This document shows positions 22,613 through 29,055 of a stretch of DNA of 53,012 nucleotides, in pieces (positions within the stretch are counted from its first letter, which is position 1; each line of letters starts with the position of its first letter). A program made the position numbers and the translations under genes. Source of the DNA: Akkermansia muciniphila (GTDB lineage Bacteria; Verrucomicrobiota; Verrucomicrobiia; Verrucomicrobiales; Akkermansiaceae); the NCBI RefSeq assembly GCF_018709685.1, contig NZ_JABDHQ010000016.1, positions 1 through 53,012 on the forward strand. Direction: 5' to 3'. A model generated the notes under the pieces. That model worked only from the letters and a program-made list of their open reading frames with translations. It had not been told where the DNA came from and made no database searches.

Positions 22613-22630
22613 TTGTAACCTACTTGTAAC
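22613..22630 (+). promoter_or_regulatory. Direct-repeat operator candidate upstream of the alpha-2-macroglobulin gene
   Basis: Two identical TTGTAAC heptamers (22613-22619 and 22624-22630) are separated by 4 bases, an 11-base period. They abut the predicted -35. The layout is that of a PhoB-type box (7-base repeats with 4-base spacers), but the regulator is not known. Confidence 0.45.
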
Positions 22631-22659
22631 TTGCCAAATATTTTCCGGGGAAGTATTCT
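22631..22659 (+). promoter_or_regulatory. Putative promoter of the alpha-2-macroglobulin gene
   Basis: TTGCCA (22631-22636), a 17-base spacer and TATTCT (22654-22659), only 6 bases before the ATG. This predicts an essentially leaderless mRNA. Confidence 0.5.
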
Positions 22660-22665
22660 GGCTGA

Positions 22666-25600
22666 ATGAACAGAATCTTTTCCGCGCTTTTTCTGGCGGC
22701 GGGCATGCTGGCTTCCGGAATGGCTTCCGCAGCATCCTCCGGCACCTCCCCGCAGGAACAGGAGGGACACGCCGCCAGGGATGCGGACAAGGCTTCCTCC
22801 CCTGCCGGGCAGCAGAGGAAGCAATCCACGGAGGCGATTGAAAAACTTTTGGAAAAGAGGCTGTTCAAACAGGCTGCCGAACAGTCCTTAAAACAGCTCA
22901 ACGAGTACGATGACCAGTACAGCGGAGCGGATTTACTTCTCTACTACCAGGCGCTCAAGCGACTGAACGCCCTGGACGATTCCCTGAATCTGGATACCAT
23001 CCTGCAAGAGCAGATGAAGCGCCACGGGAATAATCCGCAGTTCCTGATGGATGCCGCCCTCCTGTATCAGGACGCCTTCCATACGTTCAAGCTGGTGGAC
23101 GGGGCCTATATCCGCGGCAGTGAGCCATGGGACGGGGAATATTCCGGAGAGGCGCGGGACCGGGTGCAGGCCCTCCGGTGCCTTTTCAAGGCCATGCAGC
23201 TGGCGCAGAAGGACGGGGATATGAAGCTTCTGGGGCAGCTGCGTTTCCTGACGGCGCAGGCTTTATTGATCAGAAGCAGCCGCTACAATTCCCCTTCCCC
23301 CTTCCAGGCTTACGCCGCCCTGGGCAACCTGACCAGCCTGAAGGAACTGCCGGATTACGTTTCCAGGGAGGAAGCCTCCCCCTTCCGGAACGTCGGAACG
23401 GTGCCCGTCACGGTTAACCCGGAGACGGGAAAGCCGGAGGTGGTTTTCTACCATGCCTCTTCCTCCTGGGAGACAGCGAAGAATGACGGGGAGCGCATGC
23501 GCTGGCTGCTGGATGCCGCCATTCAGGCAGACCCGGAAATGGCCAACCAGATCAACTGTTATACGGCGTCCTGGTGCCAGGAGCTGTTTTCCTATTCCAA
23601 TACGGCTCCCGACCAGGAATTCGTGTACGGCCCCGGCAACGCGGGCGCCGTGGCGGGCATCAATCCGGCGGAATTGAAGACGAACCAGACCGTGGTTAAA
23701 ACGGACCGGACAGGCAAGGGTAAATTCATGCTCGTCACCCTTCCCCCTGATTACGATTTCATCAGGATTGCCTCCACCGTCACGCCCGCCCCCTATCCGA
23801 AGTATTACATTACCGCCTCCAATCTGGCCGCCGATGAATTCCTGTCCCGCAACCAGAGGCCGCACGCAGCGGAAACACTGGCAACGGCCTTGAAAAACTG
23901 GAACGCGCAGTCCTGGAATCAACAGGACAAGGAAGAATTCCTGCGCATGGCGGATAACCTGAAGAAACGCATTGCCGCCATCACGGAACCCAACGGAACT
24001 TTTGACGCGGACAAGAGAACCCTGTTATCCGGAGAACCGGTGACGGTTTCCTTCTCCTATCGTAACGCCGCCCGTGCCCGCGTTACGGCCCGTTCCGTGG
24101 ATATGCGGCGGTGGCAGCAGGAACGGATGAACAAGGTGCAGTCCTCCAGCACGCTGGGCAAGGCGTACAGGAAGAAGTATTCCAGTATGGGGACTCTTCT
24201 TTTCAATTTACTGCATGACAAGTCATACGCGGACTACCTGGGGGAAGAAATCAAGGGGCCGGATGTAGCTCTGGACCCGGGAGACCGGCACCTGAACCGG
24301 ATCGCCCAGATTCCCGTTCCTACGGAGCAGCCCGGCTGGTACCTGCTTACCGTTACGCTGGACAACGGCTACCGCTTCCACCGCTTCCTCACCCTGTCGG
24401 ACATGGTGCTGGTGCGCCGTTCCGTTCCGGAAGGCAATCTCTGGTTCCTGGCGGACGCCAAAACAGGAACGCCCGTGGAAGGGGCTGACCTGCGCCTGCT
24501 GCGCTACCGGGAAGATAAAACGCTTAAAAAGCATCAGGTGAAAGGGACCACGGACAAGGACGGAGCCCTGATTGAAACCATTCCGTCCCCGGACAGGCAA
24601 AATCCCTTTTATTCCATGTTCCTAGGCATCGCCTCCAGGGGGAACAGCTACGTGATCGCGGGGCTGGAGGGTTATGGCTGGGAATCCGGCAACCAGCTCA
24701 TGGGCACTGACAACAAAGCCTCCGATCCCTATTCCTGCTTTTTCCTGGAAAGCCAGCCCGTGTACCGCCCCGGGCAGACGGCCCGCTTTAAGGGCGTTCT
24801 CTTCCGCCCGGACATCGCGAATCCCGGAACGCAGGATTGCGCCGGGAAAAAACTGACGCTGACCATCACGGACCCCACGGGAGACAAGAGTGTTTTTCCG
24901 CCAAAAACCGTCACTACGGATTCCACGGGCTGCTTTGAACTGGAACTGCTCATCCCGGCAGGAGCCCAGCTGGGACAGTATTCCGCCAGCCTGCAGCTGC
25001 AAGATTCAGCCGACCCTGATTTCAGGCTGTACGCCCCGCTTTTCCGGATGGAAGAGTACAAGAAACCGGAATTTTCCGTCAAGATGGACGCGCCCTCCAA
25101 GCCCATCCGCCTGGGACAGTCCATCCCCGTCTCCATCCAGGCGGATTATTATGCGGGCGGCCCCGTGAGTGAAGGAAAGGCCACCATCACCATTACCCGG
25201 ACGCTGGGGGCGGACGTCTGGACGCCTTATTGGAAATGGGGCTGGCTGTATGACCGCTCCTTCAGCCCGTATTATATCCCCTTCTCCCCTGACGCGCCCC
25301 TCACCGTCCTGGAAAAAACGGTGCCGCTGGACAAGGATGGAAAAGCGTCCGTAGAACTCTCCACGGCGCAGGATGCGCGGGATTTCGCCTCCCGGAACAT
25401 CACTTACCGCGTCTCCGCCAGTGTTACGGACGCTTCCCTGCGGGAAATTTCCGCTTCCGGCCAGGTGATCGCCACGTTCCGCCCGTTCAATATCTTCACC
25501 TCCCTGAACCGTGGCTACGCGCCTACCGGAACGCCGGTGCAGGCCACCATCACCGCCGCCACGGCGGACGGAGTCAAGATAGGCGCCGCCACGGGAACGA

Positions 25601-28600
25601 CGGTGTTGCAGCATATCAAGGCGGACGGCAGCCGCCAGGCTCTGGAAACCTGGAACATCACCACCGGAAAGGAAGGGGAGGCCTCCCTCTCCTTCCAGAC
25701 CAGGGAATCAGGGCTGTACACCCTCTCCACCACGCTGGAGGACGGGCACGGGAACAAGGTGCAGGAATCCTTCCAGTTCCTTTCCTACGGCACGGGAAAA
25801 CATAATCCATTTAAAATCAACCCTCTTGCCATCACTCCGGATAAGAGGGAATACGCTCCGGGAGATACGGCCAAATTGCTCGTTACGTCGGACTATCCGG
25901 ACGCCCGCGTCTGGACCTTCCTGCGCAACTCCTGGAAAAACGAGTCCCGCCGCCTGGTTTCCCTGGACAGGCAGACTGCCCTGGTGGAGTGCCCGCTCAC
26001 CCGTGAAGACATGCCCAACATGGGCGTGAACGCCTTCACCGTCAGGAACGGGGAACTTCACCAGGCCTCTGCGGAGCTGCTGCTGCCTCCGGACAGCCAG
26101 ATACTTTCTCCTTCCGTCACGCCGGGCAAACCCCAATACCAGCCCGCGGAACAGGGAAGCGTAACGGTCCAGGTGAAAGGCCCGGACGGCAAGCCCGTGA
26201 AAAACGGCATCGTGACCCTGGCCGTTTATGACAAGGCGCTGGAATACATCGCCCGCCCCAACATCACGGATATAGCCAAAACCGTTTGGGGCAGACTGAA
26301 TGGAACCACCTTCCTCAACCTGAAAAAAATGACGGCCTCGGGAACCTCACAGGACAGGGGGCCGGACCAGCCTTATTTCCAATCTCTGCTGTTTTACGGC
26401 AGATACGGATATCTGACGCGGGATCAAATTGGAACTTTCAACGGGCTCGCCACGGGTGGCCTCAGGTCCGGAAATTCCGCCATTCTCAGCAAGTCGGAGA
26501 GCCGCTTCCTGGCTGAAGGAGCAGCCCCGGCCGCAGCGCCGGCTCCGGTAATGCAGTCCAAGGCCGCAGACGAAGGAAGCCTGGAGAATGATTCCTTTGC
26601 CGCCGGACAAGGGAACACGAATGCACCGGAAAACGCCTCCCCCGCCATTCAACTGCGCACCAACTTTGCGGACTGCATCAAGTGGTGCGACACGCTCAAG
26701 ACAGATGAGGAGGGGAACGTCACCGTACCCGTGGAAATGCCGGACAACCTGACTACCTGGAAGGCCGCCGCCTGGGTCATCACTTCCAGCCTGCAAGTGG
26801 GGCAGGCCTCCGCTGAATTCCTGACGACGAAAGATTTCATGGTCAGCATGCAGGCCCCGCGCTTCTTTGTGGAAAAAGACGTGGTCATGCTCAGCGCCCT
26901 GGTCCGCAACCGGACGGACAAAGCCGTCCGCGCCCGTGTTTCCATTTCCCTGAAAGACGGCTGCCTGGAACTTCTCCCGGCTGACGCTCCGGCGGTGAAG
27001 GGTCTTGCCGCGGACACGGACAACTCCGCGGTGCGGGAAGTGGATGTGCCCGCCCAGGGCCAGGCAGTCGTCAACTGGTGGACCGCCGCCATCCGGGAGG
27101 GAACCGCCACCGTCGCCATGGAAGCGGCGGCAGGTTCCGCCGGGGACGCCATGCAGATGAACTTCCCCGTGCTGGTGCACGGCATGAAGCAGCTCCACGC
27201 GGACAGCGCCGTGGTGCTGCCCGGAGAACAGGAACAGCAGCTCTCCATCACCCTGCCGCAGCAGCGGCGCAGGGAAGAAAGCGAACTGGTCGTCAAGGTC
27301 TCCCCCAGCATCGCCCTGAGCATGGTGGAGGCCCTGCCCTACCTGGCGGAATACCCCTATGGCTGCGTGGAGCAGACGCTCAACCGCTTCCTGCCCGCCC
27401 TCGTGGTGACGAACACACTCAAGCAGCTGGGGCTGAACCCCGGCGCGGCGCTGGAAAGCCACCGCAACCTGAATCCCCAGACTATCCGGGACAAGGCCTT
27501 TTATGACAGCGTCATGAAGAGGCTGGAACGCAACCCCGTGTATGATGAAGCCGCGCTGAAGAAGCTGGCCGCCAAGGGAATTGCCTCCCTCCGGGAGAAA
27601 CAGCTCTCCAACGGTTCCTGGGGATGGTTTGGAGGAGCCAATGAGGGAGACCCCGTCATGACGGCCCATGTGGCCCATGGCCTCAAGCTGGCCTCAAACA
27701 CGGTCAAGGTACCGGAGGGCATGCTTTCCGGCGCCGTCCGCTGGCTGGAAAACTACCAGGCGGGCCAGGCAAGCCTTCTGGCGAAGGGAGACGAGTACCG
27801 GAAGCTGGAACAACTGCCGGACGGCCCCGGGAAGAAGGAGGCCATCCGCAAACTGGGAGATTACCGCCTGACGGCTTCAGCAACGGACGCCCTGGTTTAT
27901 TCCGTGCTGGTGGAAGGAGGCGTCATCAACCTTCCCATGGAACGCTACCTGTTCCGTGACAGGCTGGAGCTCCCCGTCATCAGCCAGATCCAGCTGGCGG
28001 AAATCCTGCTGGACGCCCACCGCATGGACGATTTCAAGAAAGTGATGCCCATCATCTCCCAGTTCCTTCAGCAGGACGACTCCCTGCAAACCGCCTGGCT
28101 GCGCCTCCCGAACGAAGGTTACTGGTGGCGCTGGTACGGAAGCGACGTAGCCACGCAGGCGGCCTACCTGAAGCTGATGGCCAAGAGCGACCCCAACAAT
28201 CCCGTCACGGCGCGCCTGGCCAAATGGCTGCTCAACAACCGCTCCAACGGCTCCTACTGGAACTCCACCAAGGACACGGCGGACTGCCTGGAAGCCCTGT
28301 CAGCCTATCTTTTCCAAACCAGGGAAGGCATGGAGGACATGGAAGCGGAAATCCTTTACGACGGCGTCCCGGTCAAAACGATTGCAAGCACTAAGGAAAC
28401 CCTGTTCACCTTTGACAACGTCTTCCGCATGAGCGGAAAAGACCTGGCGGACGGCAAACACGCCATCACCATCCGCAGGAAGAAAGGCAAGGGCAACATT
28501 TACGCCAACTCCACGCTCACCTACTTTTCCCTGGAAGACCCCATCCCCGCCGCCGGGAATGCCGTTACCGTGGAGCGCGCCTACTACCGCATCCAAAAGG

Positions 28601-29055
28601 AAACCGTGAAGGACGGCGCGGTCAGGGATACCCAGACGGACAGCGGGGAACTCGTCTCCCAGGGGAAGGACGTGACCCGCCGCACCCTGCTGCAACATGG
28701 AGACGTCATCGCCAGCGGCGACATCATTGAAGTGGTGATGACCGTGAAGACGAAGAACGACGTGGAATACCTCATGCTTCTGGACCCCAAGCCCGCAGGG
28801 TGCGAATCACAGGAAACCGCCAGCGGATACGCCTGGATGGGAACCGTCTCCGGCTACAAGGAAATAGGGGATGAGGAAATACGCATTTTCCTCTCCTCCC
28901 TGCCGATGGGGAGCTACCAGATCAGCCACCGCCTCCGCGCGGAACGCCCGGGGCGTTTCAGCGCCCTTCCCGCGGTGATTGAAGCCATGTACGCTCCGGA
29001 ACTCCGCGGCAACAGCCGGGAACACAAGATAGGCATCTCCATGCCTGCCGAATAG
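22666..29055 (+). CDS. Bacterial alpha-2-macroglobulin family protein (YfaS-like)
   Basis: 2,129 residues, the largest gene here. The signal peptide is MNRIFSALFLAAGMLASG, cleaved near ASA; there is no lipobox, so it is exported rather than lipid-anchored. A family-specific helical N-terminal region (~30-440) is followed by macroglobulin domains, including VYRPGQTARFKGVLFRPD near 697-714. A low-complexity Ala/Pro-rich stretch at about 1268-1330 lies where the bait region is expected. The A2M core follows (DNLTTWKAAAWV). The thioester site YPYGCVEQT has C1567 and Q1570, so covalent trapping should be possible. The family is thought to entrap attacking proteases in the periplasm. pbpC, the common partner gene, is not adjacent. 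A terminator follows. Confidence 0.93.
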   Translation: MNRIFSALFLAAGMLASGMASAASSGTSPQEQEGHAARDADKASSPAGQQRKQSTEAIEKLLEKRLFKQAAEQSLKQLNEYDDQYSGADLLLYYQALKRLNALDDSLNLDTILQEQMKRHGNNPQFLMDAALLYQDAFHTFKLVDGAYIRGSEPWDGEYSGEARDRVQALRCLFKAMQLAQKDGDMKLLGQLRFLTAQALLIRSSRYNSPSPFQAYAALGNLTSLKELPDYVSREEASPFRNVGTVPVTVNPETGKPEVVFYHASSSWETAKNDGERMRWLLDAAIQADPEMANQINCYTASWCQELFSYSNTAPDQEFVYGPGNAGAVAGINPAELKTNQTVVKTDRTGKGKFMLVTLPPDYDFIRIASTVTPAPYPKYYITASNLAADEFLSRNQRPHAAETLATALKNWNAQSWNQQDKEEFLRMADNLKKRIAAITEPNGTFDADKRTLLSGEPVTVSFSYRNAARARVTARSVDMRRWQQERMNKVQSSSTLGKAYRKKYSSMGTLLFNLLHDKSYADYLGEEIKGPDVALDPGDRHLNRIAQIPVPTEQPGWYLLTVTLDNGYRFHRFLTLSDMVLVRRSVPEGNLWFLADAKTGTPVEGADLRLLRYREDKTLKKHQVKGTTDKDGALIETIPSPDRQNPFYSMFLGIASRGNSYVIAGLEGYGWESGNQLMGTDNKASDPYSCFFLESQPVYRPGQTARFKGVLFRPDIANPGTQDCAGKKLTLTITDPTGDKSVFPPKTVTTDSTGCFELELLIPAGAQLGQYSASLQLQDSADPDFRLYAPLFRMEEYKKPEFSVKMDAPSKPIRLGQSIPVSIQADYYAGGPVSEGKATITITRTLGADVWTPYWKWGWLYDRSFSPYYIPFSPDAPLTVLEKTVPLDKDGKASVELSTAQDARDFASRNITYRVSASVTDASLREISASGQVIATFRPFNIFTSLNRGYAPTGTPVQATITAATADGVKIGAATGTTVLQHIKADGSRQALETWNITTGKEGEASLSFQTRESGLYTLSTTLEDGHGNKVQESFQFLSYGTGKHNPFKINPLAITPDKREYAPGDTAKLLVTSDYPDARVWTFLRNSWKNESRRLVSLDRQTALVECPLTREDMPNMGVNAFTVRNGELHQASAELLLPPDSQILSPSVTPGKPQYQPAEQGSVTVQVKGPDGKPVKNGIVTLAVYDKALEYIARPNITDIAKTVWGRLNGTTFLNLKKMTASGTSQDRGPDQPYFQSLLFYGRYGYLTRDQIGTFNGLATGGLRSGNSAILSKSESRFLAEGAAPAAAPAPVMQSKAADEGSLENDSFAAGQGNTNAPENASPAIQLRTNFADCIKWCDTLKTDEEGNVTVPVEMPDNLTTWKAAAWVITSSLQVGQASAEFLTTKDFMVSMQAPRFFVEKDVVMLSALVRNRTDKAVRARVSISLKDGCLELLPADAPAVKGLAADTDNSAVREVDVPAQGQAVVNWWTAAIREGTATVAMEAAAGSAGDAMQMNFPVLVHGMKQLHADSAVVLPGEQEQQLSITLPQQRRREESELVVKVSPSIALSMVEALPYLAEYPYGCVEQTLNRFLPALVVTNTLKQLGLNPGAALESHRNLNPQTIRDKAFYDSVMKRLERNPVYDEAALKKLAAKGIASLREKQLSNGSWGWFGGANEGDPVMTAHVAHGLKLASNTVKVPEGMLSGAVRWLENYQAGQASLLAKGDEYRKLEQLPDGPGKKEAIRKLGDYRLTASATDALVYSVLVEGGVINLPMERYLFRDRLELPVISQIQLAEILLDAHRMDDFKKVMPIISQFLQQDDSLQTAWLRLPNEGYWWRWYGSDVATQAAYLKLMAKSDPNNPVTARLAKWLLNNRSNGSYWNSTKDTADCLEALSAYLFQTREGMEDMEAEILYDGVPVKTIASTKETLFTFDNVFRMSGKDLADGKHAITIRRKKGKGNIYANSTLTYFSLEDPIPAAGNAVTVERAYYRIQKETVKDGAVRDTQTDSGELVSQGKDVTRRTLLQHGDVIASGDIIEVVMTVKTKNDVEYLMLLDPKPAGCESQETASGYAWMGTVSGYKEIGDEEIRIFLSSLPMGSYQISHRLRAERPGRFSALPAVIEAMYAPELRGNSREHKIGISMPAE

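Follow-up and report, generated by a model that had tools for sequence, protein, structure and literature searches.

A conserved two-half-site box at an alpha-2-macroglobulin promoter of Akkermansia muciniphila, predicted operator of an OmpR/PhoB-family two-component regulator

The closest described counterparts of the locus studied here are operators of the OmpR/PhoB family in Escherichia coli. The full Pho-box consensus of E. coli lies at the -35 position, and the CreBC regulon, which has a link to the cell envelope, uses the site TTCAC-N6-TTCAC. The half-sites are TGTCA(T/C) for PhoB and TTTA(T/C)A for KdpE, and the KdpE site is made of 6-bp repeats with a 5-bp gap (PMC3264566). The alpha-2-macroglobulin of E. 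coli (yfhM, often found with pbp1C) has been proposed as a periplasmic defence against proteases (PMC4498604).

The Akkermansia locus resembles the PhoB and KdpE systems in having two half-sites arranged head to tail, with a period of 11 bp, close to a -35 element and a candidate OmpR/PhoB-family regulator, here called RR-A; the 11-bp direct repeat and the OmpR-type regulator are also shared with CreBC. However, the Akkermansia half-site is TTGTAAC, unlike any of these, and the recognition helix of RR-A differs as well. Unlike in the PhoB system, the RR-A gene lies within a cluster encoding VIT/VWA proteins and a separate candidate Pho box stands at the pst operon, while RR-A scores well below the curated CreB cut-off (166.2 of 273 bits). 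The trap belongs to the same thioester-containing family as that of E. coli, but its gene is followed by an EamA-type gene and has its own promoter with a predicted operator. The part of the literature that was covered describes neither two-component control of a bacterial alpha-2-macroglobulin nor such a regulon in Akkermansia.

The repeat and the promoter of the alpha-2-macroglobulin gene

The window, that is, the whole stretch of 53,012 nucleotides analysed, corresponds to contig C8 in the 2.86-Mb genome G000. The earlier note had described TTGTAAC occurring twice with a four-base spacer and touching a TTGCCA -35 element, and inspection of the sequence confirmed this arrangement at 22613-22636, with the tandem repeat TTGTAAC-CTAC-TTGTAAC at 22613-22630. 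The features are:

22613..22619, + strand: upstream half-site TTGTAAC, invariant in the nine box-bearing alpha-2-macroglobulin (A2M) promoters
22620..22623, + strand: spacer CTAC, giving the 11-bp period, invariant in the same nine promoters
22624..22630, + strand: downstream half-site TTGTAAC, invariant in the same nine promoters
22631..22636, + strand: -35-like hexamer TTGCCA, abutting the box and kept also in three genomes with a decayed box
22654..22659, + strand: -10-like hexamer TATTCT, TAnnnT in relatives
22666..29055, + strand: A2M gene, 2129 aa, with the thioester motif GCVEQ near residue 1566

The two hexamers are separated by 17 nt, and 6 nt lie between the -10 and the ATG at 22666. 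This short distance, the retention of a TAnnnT -10 in all nine box-bearing promoters and the frequency of leaderless starts in A. muciniphila, which make up 10% of the start sites mapped by Cappable-seq (PMC4782308), make a leaderless A2M transcript plausible. The encoded protein contains the Pfam domains MG2, MG3, A2M_BRD, A2M, TED_complement and bMG10, and so combines the MG2, bait-region, A2M, TED and MG10 domains with the thioester, as is typical of bacterial alpha-2-macroglobulins. Two A2M relatives, at 82-85%, come from records labelled Akkermansia muciniphila.

A bare 7-N4-7 pattern is unremarkable by itself, since perfect repeats of this form start at 11 positions of the window, several of them being shifted versions of one repeat. 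The A2M box is the sole match with up to three mismatches in the window, where 0.91 would be expected by chance, and the only perfect copy of TTGTAAC-CTAC-TTGTAAC in the genome. At up to three mismatches the genome holds 57 matches versus 128 for the reversed control, and a wider regulon of G000 drawn from such loose matching was ruled out because there is no excess. Both two-mismatch matches fall within open reading frames (232 and 441 aa), as does the one three-mismatch match inspected (frames of 212-243 aa). Only two strong sites are found in G000, the A2M box and a sister box at a VIT/VWA gene.

What lifts the box above chance is its conservation across genomes. In an alignment of the A2M promoters of nine box-bearing Akkermansia genomes, which left out the box-less G075, G081 and G082, 26 bases (TTGTAACCTACTTGTAACTTGCCAAA; the box plus TTGCCAAA) are invariant, while the flanks have diverged and the A2M proteins are 70-100% identical. 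A chance repeat, which the many perfect start positions in the window might suggest, is thus a negligible explanation in view of these 26 bases and of the sister sites at related genes.

The VIT/VWA two-component cluster and its co-inheritance with the box

Apart from the spacer, the sister box, ATGTAAC-CTGA-TTGTAAC at C44:173313, differs from the A2M box at one base. In the alignment of ten genomes, chosen because the box is present there, it stands 33 nt before the start of the VIT/VWA protein gene (30 nt in G067), and its spacer is CTGA in nine of them and CTAC in G067. The gene order in G000 is VIT/VWA gene, VWA gene, OmpR-type response regulator RR-A and sensor kinase, and the short intergenic gaps suggest a single operon. 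RR-A (G000:C44:177398-178147) has the domains Response_reg and Trans_reg_C, and in the adjacent kinase two hydrophobic segments flank a region of about 410 residues. RR-A is listed from a TTG (L091:5399-6148), but upstream, G017 and G069 have in-frame stops, which suggest that the true start is more likely MHRYRIL, at residue 22.

Among 76 genomes of the genus, the CT-type box (0 mismatches) occurs in ten and RR-A (E<=1e-90) in the identical set of ten, a match which largely represents one clade. A2M (E<=1e-150) is found in 13 genomes, namely nine with the box, G015, G075, G081 and G082. The copy of G015 is distant (32%) and has no box, whereas G075, G081 and G082 keep A2M at 83%. In these last three genomes, RR-A was absent at E<=1e-90 and the VIT/VWA gene, searched in eight genomes only, was absent at E<=1e-10. 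Their upstream half-site reads CCGCAGC or CCGTAAC and the downstream one TTGCAAC, so that 4-5 of the 18 box bases are changed (3-5 of the 14 within half-sites), versus none in the nine others, and TTGCCAA and the TAnnnT -10 are retained. This decay is modest: relative to G017, the box rate (4-5/18) is only modestly above that of the promoter (5-7/38 bases), so drift can explain part of it. Furthermore, the losses in the three genomes are probably a single event.

The proposal of the earlier note that the repeat is the site of an OmpR/PhoB-type response regulator at the -35 finds strong support in this co-occurrence and co-loss with RR-A. It had also been expected that close relatives keeping the promoter would conserve the repeat; taken literally, this fails in G075, G081 and G082, but these are exactly the ones without RR-A. 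Concerning other genomes, G013 has a VIT gene (51%) and a VWA gene and lacks RR-A at E<=1e-90, a regulator in the approximately 170 nt read after the VWA gene, and a box, the best match being 8/14 in the roughly 300 nt scanned.

Regarding the integrity of the A2M gene, its frame in G059 (L252/L253) appears as two matches split by a TGA, and the matches in G082 (L248) and G075 (L250) contain one TAA; relatives have intact copies.

Related boxes and promoter geometry in the genus

Sites of the form TTGTAAC-N4-TTGTAAC with up to one mismatch occur in 44 of 59 genomes, with 113 sites versus 38 for the reversed control. Once identical contexts were merged, 110 sites remained (45 perfect, 65 one-mismatch), and 38 of the perfect and 31 of the one-mismatch sites are upstream of members of five protein clusters, the downstream gene having been picked by a script that set some starts wrongly. 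These clusters are PA14-like membrane proteins (36 sites), whose PA14 likeness is based on two weak Pfam matches among the members, VIT/VWA proteins (9 sites), a small membrane-type family of 373-432 aa without Pfam match (9 sites), a second A2M type in which MG2 was detected (8 sites) and the A2M type of the window (7 sites). The remaining sites, at scattered genes or none, may be chance matches. The search suggested in the earlier note, for the motif at other genes and A2M loci and at pst genes, thus found boxes at the VIT/VWA, A2M, PA14-like and small membrane protein genes and none at pst.

Outside the RR-A clade the spacer often reads ACWW, and co-inheritance with a Response_reg and Trans_reg_C protein is looser. 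The best RR-A match is 44-52% identical in 46 of the 59 genomes. In a regulator tree that took in only part of the RR-A-like proteins of these 46, RR-A, its paralogue RR-B and the regulators of the other clade group together as one family, from which the PhoB-like and KdpE-like proteins are separate. No site with up to one mismatch was found in 15 of the 59 genomes, yet each of them encodes a regulator with 44-52% identity to RR-A. G027, an assembly of about 330 contigs with two perfect sites, and G080, with one-mismatch sites, gave no RR-A match at E<=1e-30. In G002 and G065 the gene of the related response regulator has an inverted one-mismatch box at a distance of about 40-50 bp.

The distance from the box to the promoter was studied by scanning for -35/-10 pairs downstream of the box. 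The -35 begins 1 nt past the box in all seven promoters of the window's A2M type, and 12 nt (4/8) or 21-22 nt (4/8) past it in the small membrane family, where it reads TTGACA or TTGACG and the pairs score 9-11 of 12 matches. In the second A2M type it begins 11-12 nt past the box in four of six promoters, not always as the best-scoring pair, and in the PA14-like promoters at about 21-22 nt in 8/30. The scan gave no clear pair in many PA14-like promoters, nor a clear standard one at VIT/VWA; the hexamer present there about 21 nt past the box is CATCAT or TATAAA. Hence, the box has the two head-to-tail half-sites of 6-7 bp and the period of about 11 bp of an OmpR/PhoB operator, and it lies at or upstream of the -35 in the window's A2M type, the small membrane family and most of the second A2M type. 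The distances differ in steps close to one helical turn, the pattern of an activator confined to one DNA face, and it is from this geometry only that we infer activation rather than repression.

Several observations concern individual families. The PA14-like family comprises membrane proteins of about 430 aa that start with MA[LI]HIQMSEEAE and have a PA14-like C-terminal part (L148, L074, L076, L082 and others); several Akkermansia carry their genes in tandem, and the box often precedes these genes by about 80 nt. A third conserved site, ATGTAAC-NCCG-TTGTAAC, lies inverted about 60 nt upstream of the gene for an accessory secreted protein without Pfam match in G069, G076, G004, G059 and G083 (L141:962-979, L089, L132, L172, L257). 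That gene was not found in the other eight of nine genomes tested, including G000 (E<=1e-10). An assignment of this site to a RecQ-like gene was ruled out, as the site is on the other side, upstream of the secreted protein. Moreover, the box TTGTAACATATTTGTAAC is located 107 nt upstream of the gene of one protein, which we take to have an ATP-cone-like N-terminus, and is conserved in G018, G021 and G027 (L071, L083, L086).

Candidate regulators and alternative readings

The genome encodes four Trans_reg_C proteins: a KdpE-like one, a PhoB-like one (C23), RR-A and RR-B (C34). None reaches the curated PhoB cut-off of 296.2 bits; PhoB models are the best-scoring for RR-A (193.8 bits), but RR-A is not the most PhoB-like protein of the genome, since the C23 regulator scores 223.8 (RR-B, 183.4). 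RR-B (L203; G000:C34:216386) has its own kinase and comes after a small membrane-protein gene and a gene that we presume to be hemB-like.

It is highly probable, in our judgement, that 22613-22630 is the operator through which RR-A, as a dedicated two-component regulator, activates A2M. Once phosphorylated, RR-A would occupy the two half-sites as a tandem dimer immediately before the A2M -35 (box centre near -44, given a transcript that begins at the ATG) and would recruit RNA polymerase, so that the exported protease trap is switched on. RR-A would also switch on the VIT/VWA cluster and, if this cluster is co-transcribed, its own gene. The case for this reading is built from sequence comparison, that is, from conservation, co-occurrence, co-loss, gene linkage and spacing. 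Since the target families that recur seem to be exported or bound to membranes, the signal may plausibly relate to the envelope.

Phosphate had been named in the earlier note as an example of the signal, and this did not hold. The pst operon of G000, identified by pstB above its curated cut-off (the names pstS and phoU are our own reading), is preceded at its head gene by TTGTGAC-GATT-TCTTAAC. This candidate Pho box, TTGTGACRATTTCTTAAS (TTGTGAC-RATT-TCTTAAS), has an 11-bp period and a half-site unlike TTGTAAC. It lies about 105-112 nt before the pst head gene in G000, G004, G059, G071, G079 and G067 and also precedes that gene in G028. At up to two mismatches it occurs in 15 of 59 genomes, where the weaker matches may be chance, and is absent from G075; as the A2M box has decayed there too, more than one regulon may have changed in G075. 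The A2M box was therefore rejected as a Pho box, the conserved box at pst being another one. The coordinates of TTGTGACRATTTCTTAAS are L200:510-527 (G000:C16) and L201:501-518 (G000:C14). One conserved copy stands about 111 nt ahead of the pst head gene, and the other, close to a second pstB, points by eye towards a prepilin-like gene.

Other assignments of the box have to be weighed against activation by RR-A. That the C23 regulator turns A2M on in phosphate starvation might be argued from the common 11-bp head-to-tail layout, the kinase-like gene next to C23, the preference of RR-A for PhoB models and the joint absence of the A2M and pst-type boxes in G075. Nevertheless, this is very improbable given the distinct box at pst; moreover, G075 keeps a regulator whose match to RR-A equals that of C23 (40%) and its A2M box has decayed all the same, and the recognition helices differ (LDTHMKRLRQK in C23, IDTTIARLREK in RR-A). 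The use of the box by RR-B, alone or together with RR-A, is also improbable: the 51% identity between the two and their common family could mean a common specificity, but G075 and G015 have RR-B-type regulators without an intact box, and the 8-kb surroundings of RR-B in G000 contain no box of at least 11/14.

Binding of RR-A to the box could also serve to repress A2M and the VIT/VWA cluster, since the box touches the A2M -35, would cover a -35 at VIT/VWA, and is inverted relative to the nearby gene at two further sites. We regard this as rather unlikely because recognisable -35/-10 elements follow the box at a distance of one or two helical turns in the small membrane family and the second A2M type, where a repressor would be poorly placed. 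An alternative sigma factor element, or a binding site for some other, unrelated dimeric regulator, would agree with a block adjoining the -35 and with the many PA14-like genes without a standard -35/-10 pair, yet is hardly credible for a direct repeat whose distance to the promoter varies by whole turns and which is linked to an OmpR-type regulator gene.

A broader extension of activation by RR-A is possible, albeit doubtful: a genus-wide "envelope guard" regulon, in which a two-component family reading TTGTAAC-N4-TTGTAAC, present in the ancestor of Akkermansia and later duplicated within the muciniphila-like clade, would co-express A2M, VIT/VWA and PA14-like surface proteins. The outer region of the kinase, of about 410 residues, would sense proteolytic damage, for example by host proteases in mucus, and the VIT/VWA proteins would be bacterial counterparts of the inter-alpha-trypsin-inhibitor domains. 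The 15 of 59 genomes with a related regulator and no site make this extension less likely.

Most likely, then, the box is a conserved operator of a new OmpR/PhoB-family regulon tying a protease trap to a VIT/VWA two-component cluster. With this, candidates for the regulator, the operator and the targets are available for a bacterial protease trap of a gut symbiont that attracts broad medical interest. The decay of the box where RR-A is gone is a natural experiment which makes the link between both directly testable, and species with the RR-A system can be contrasted with those keeping A2M without RR-A.
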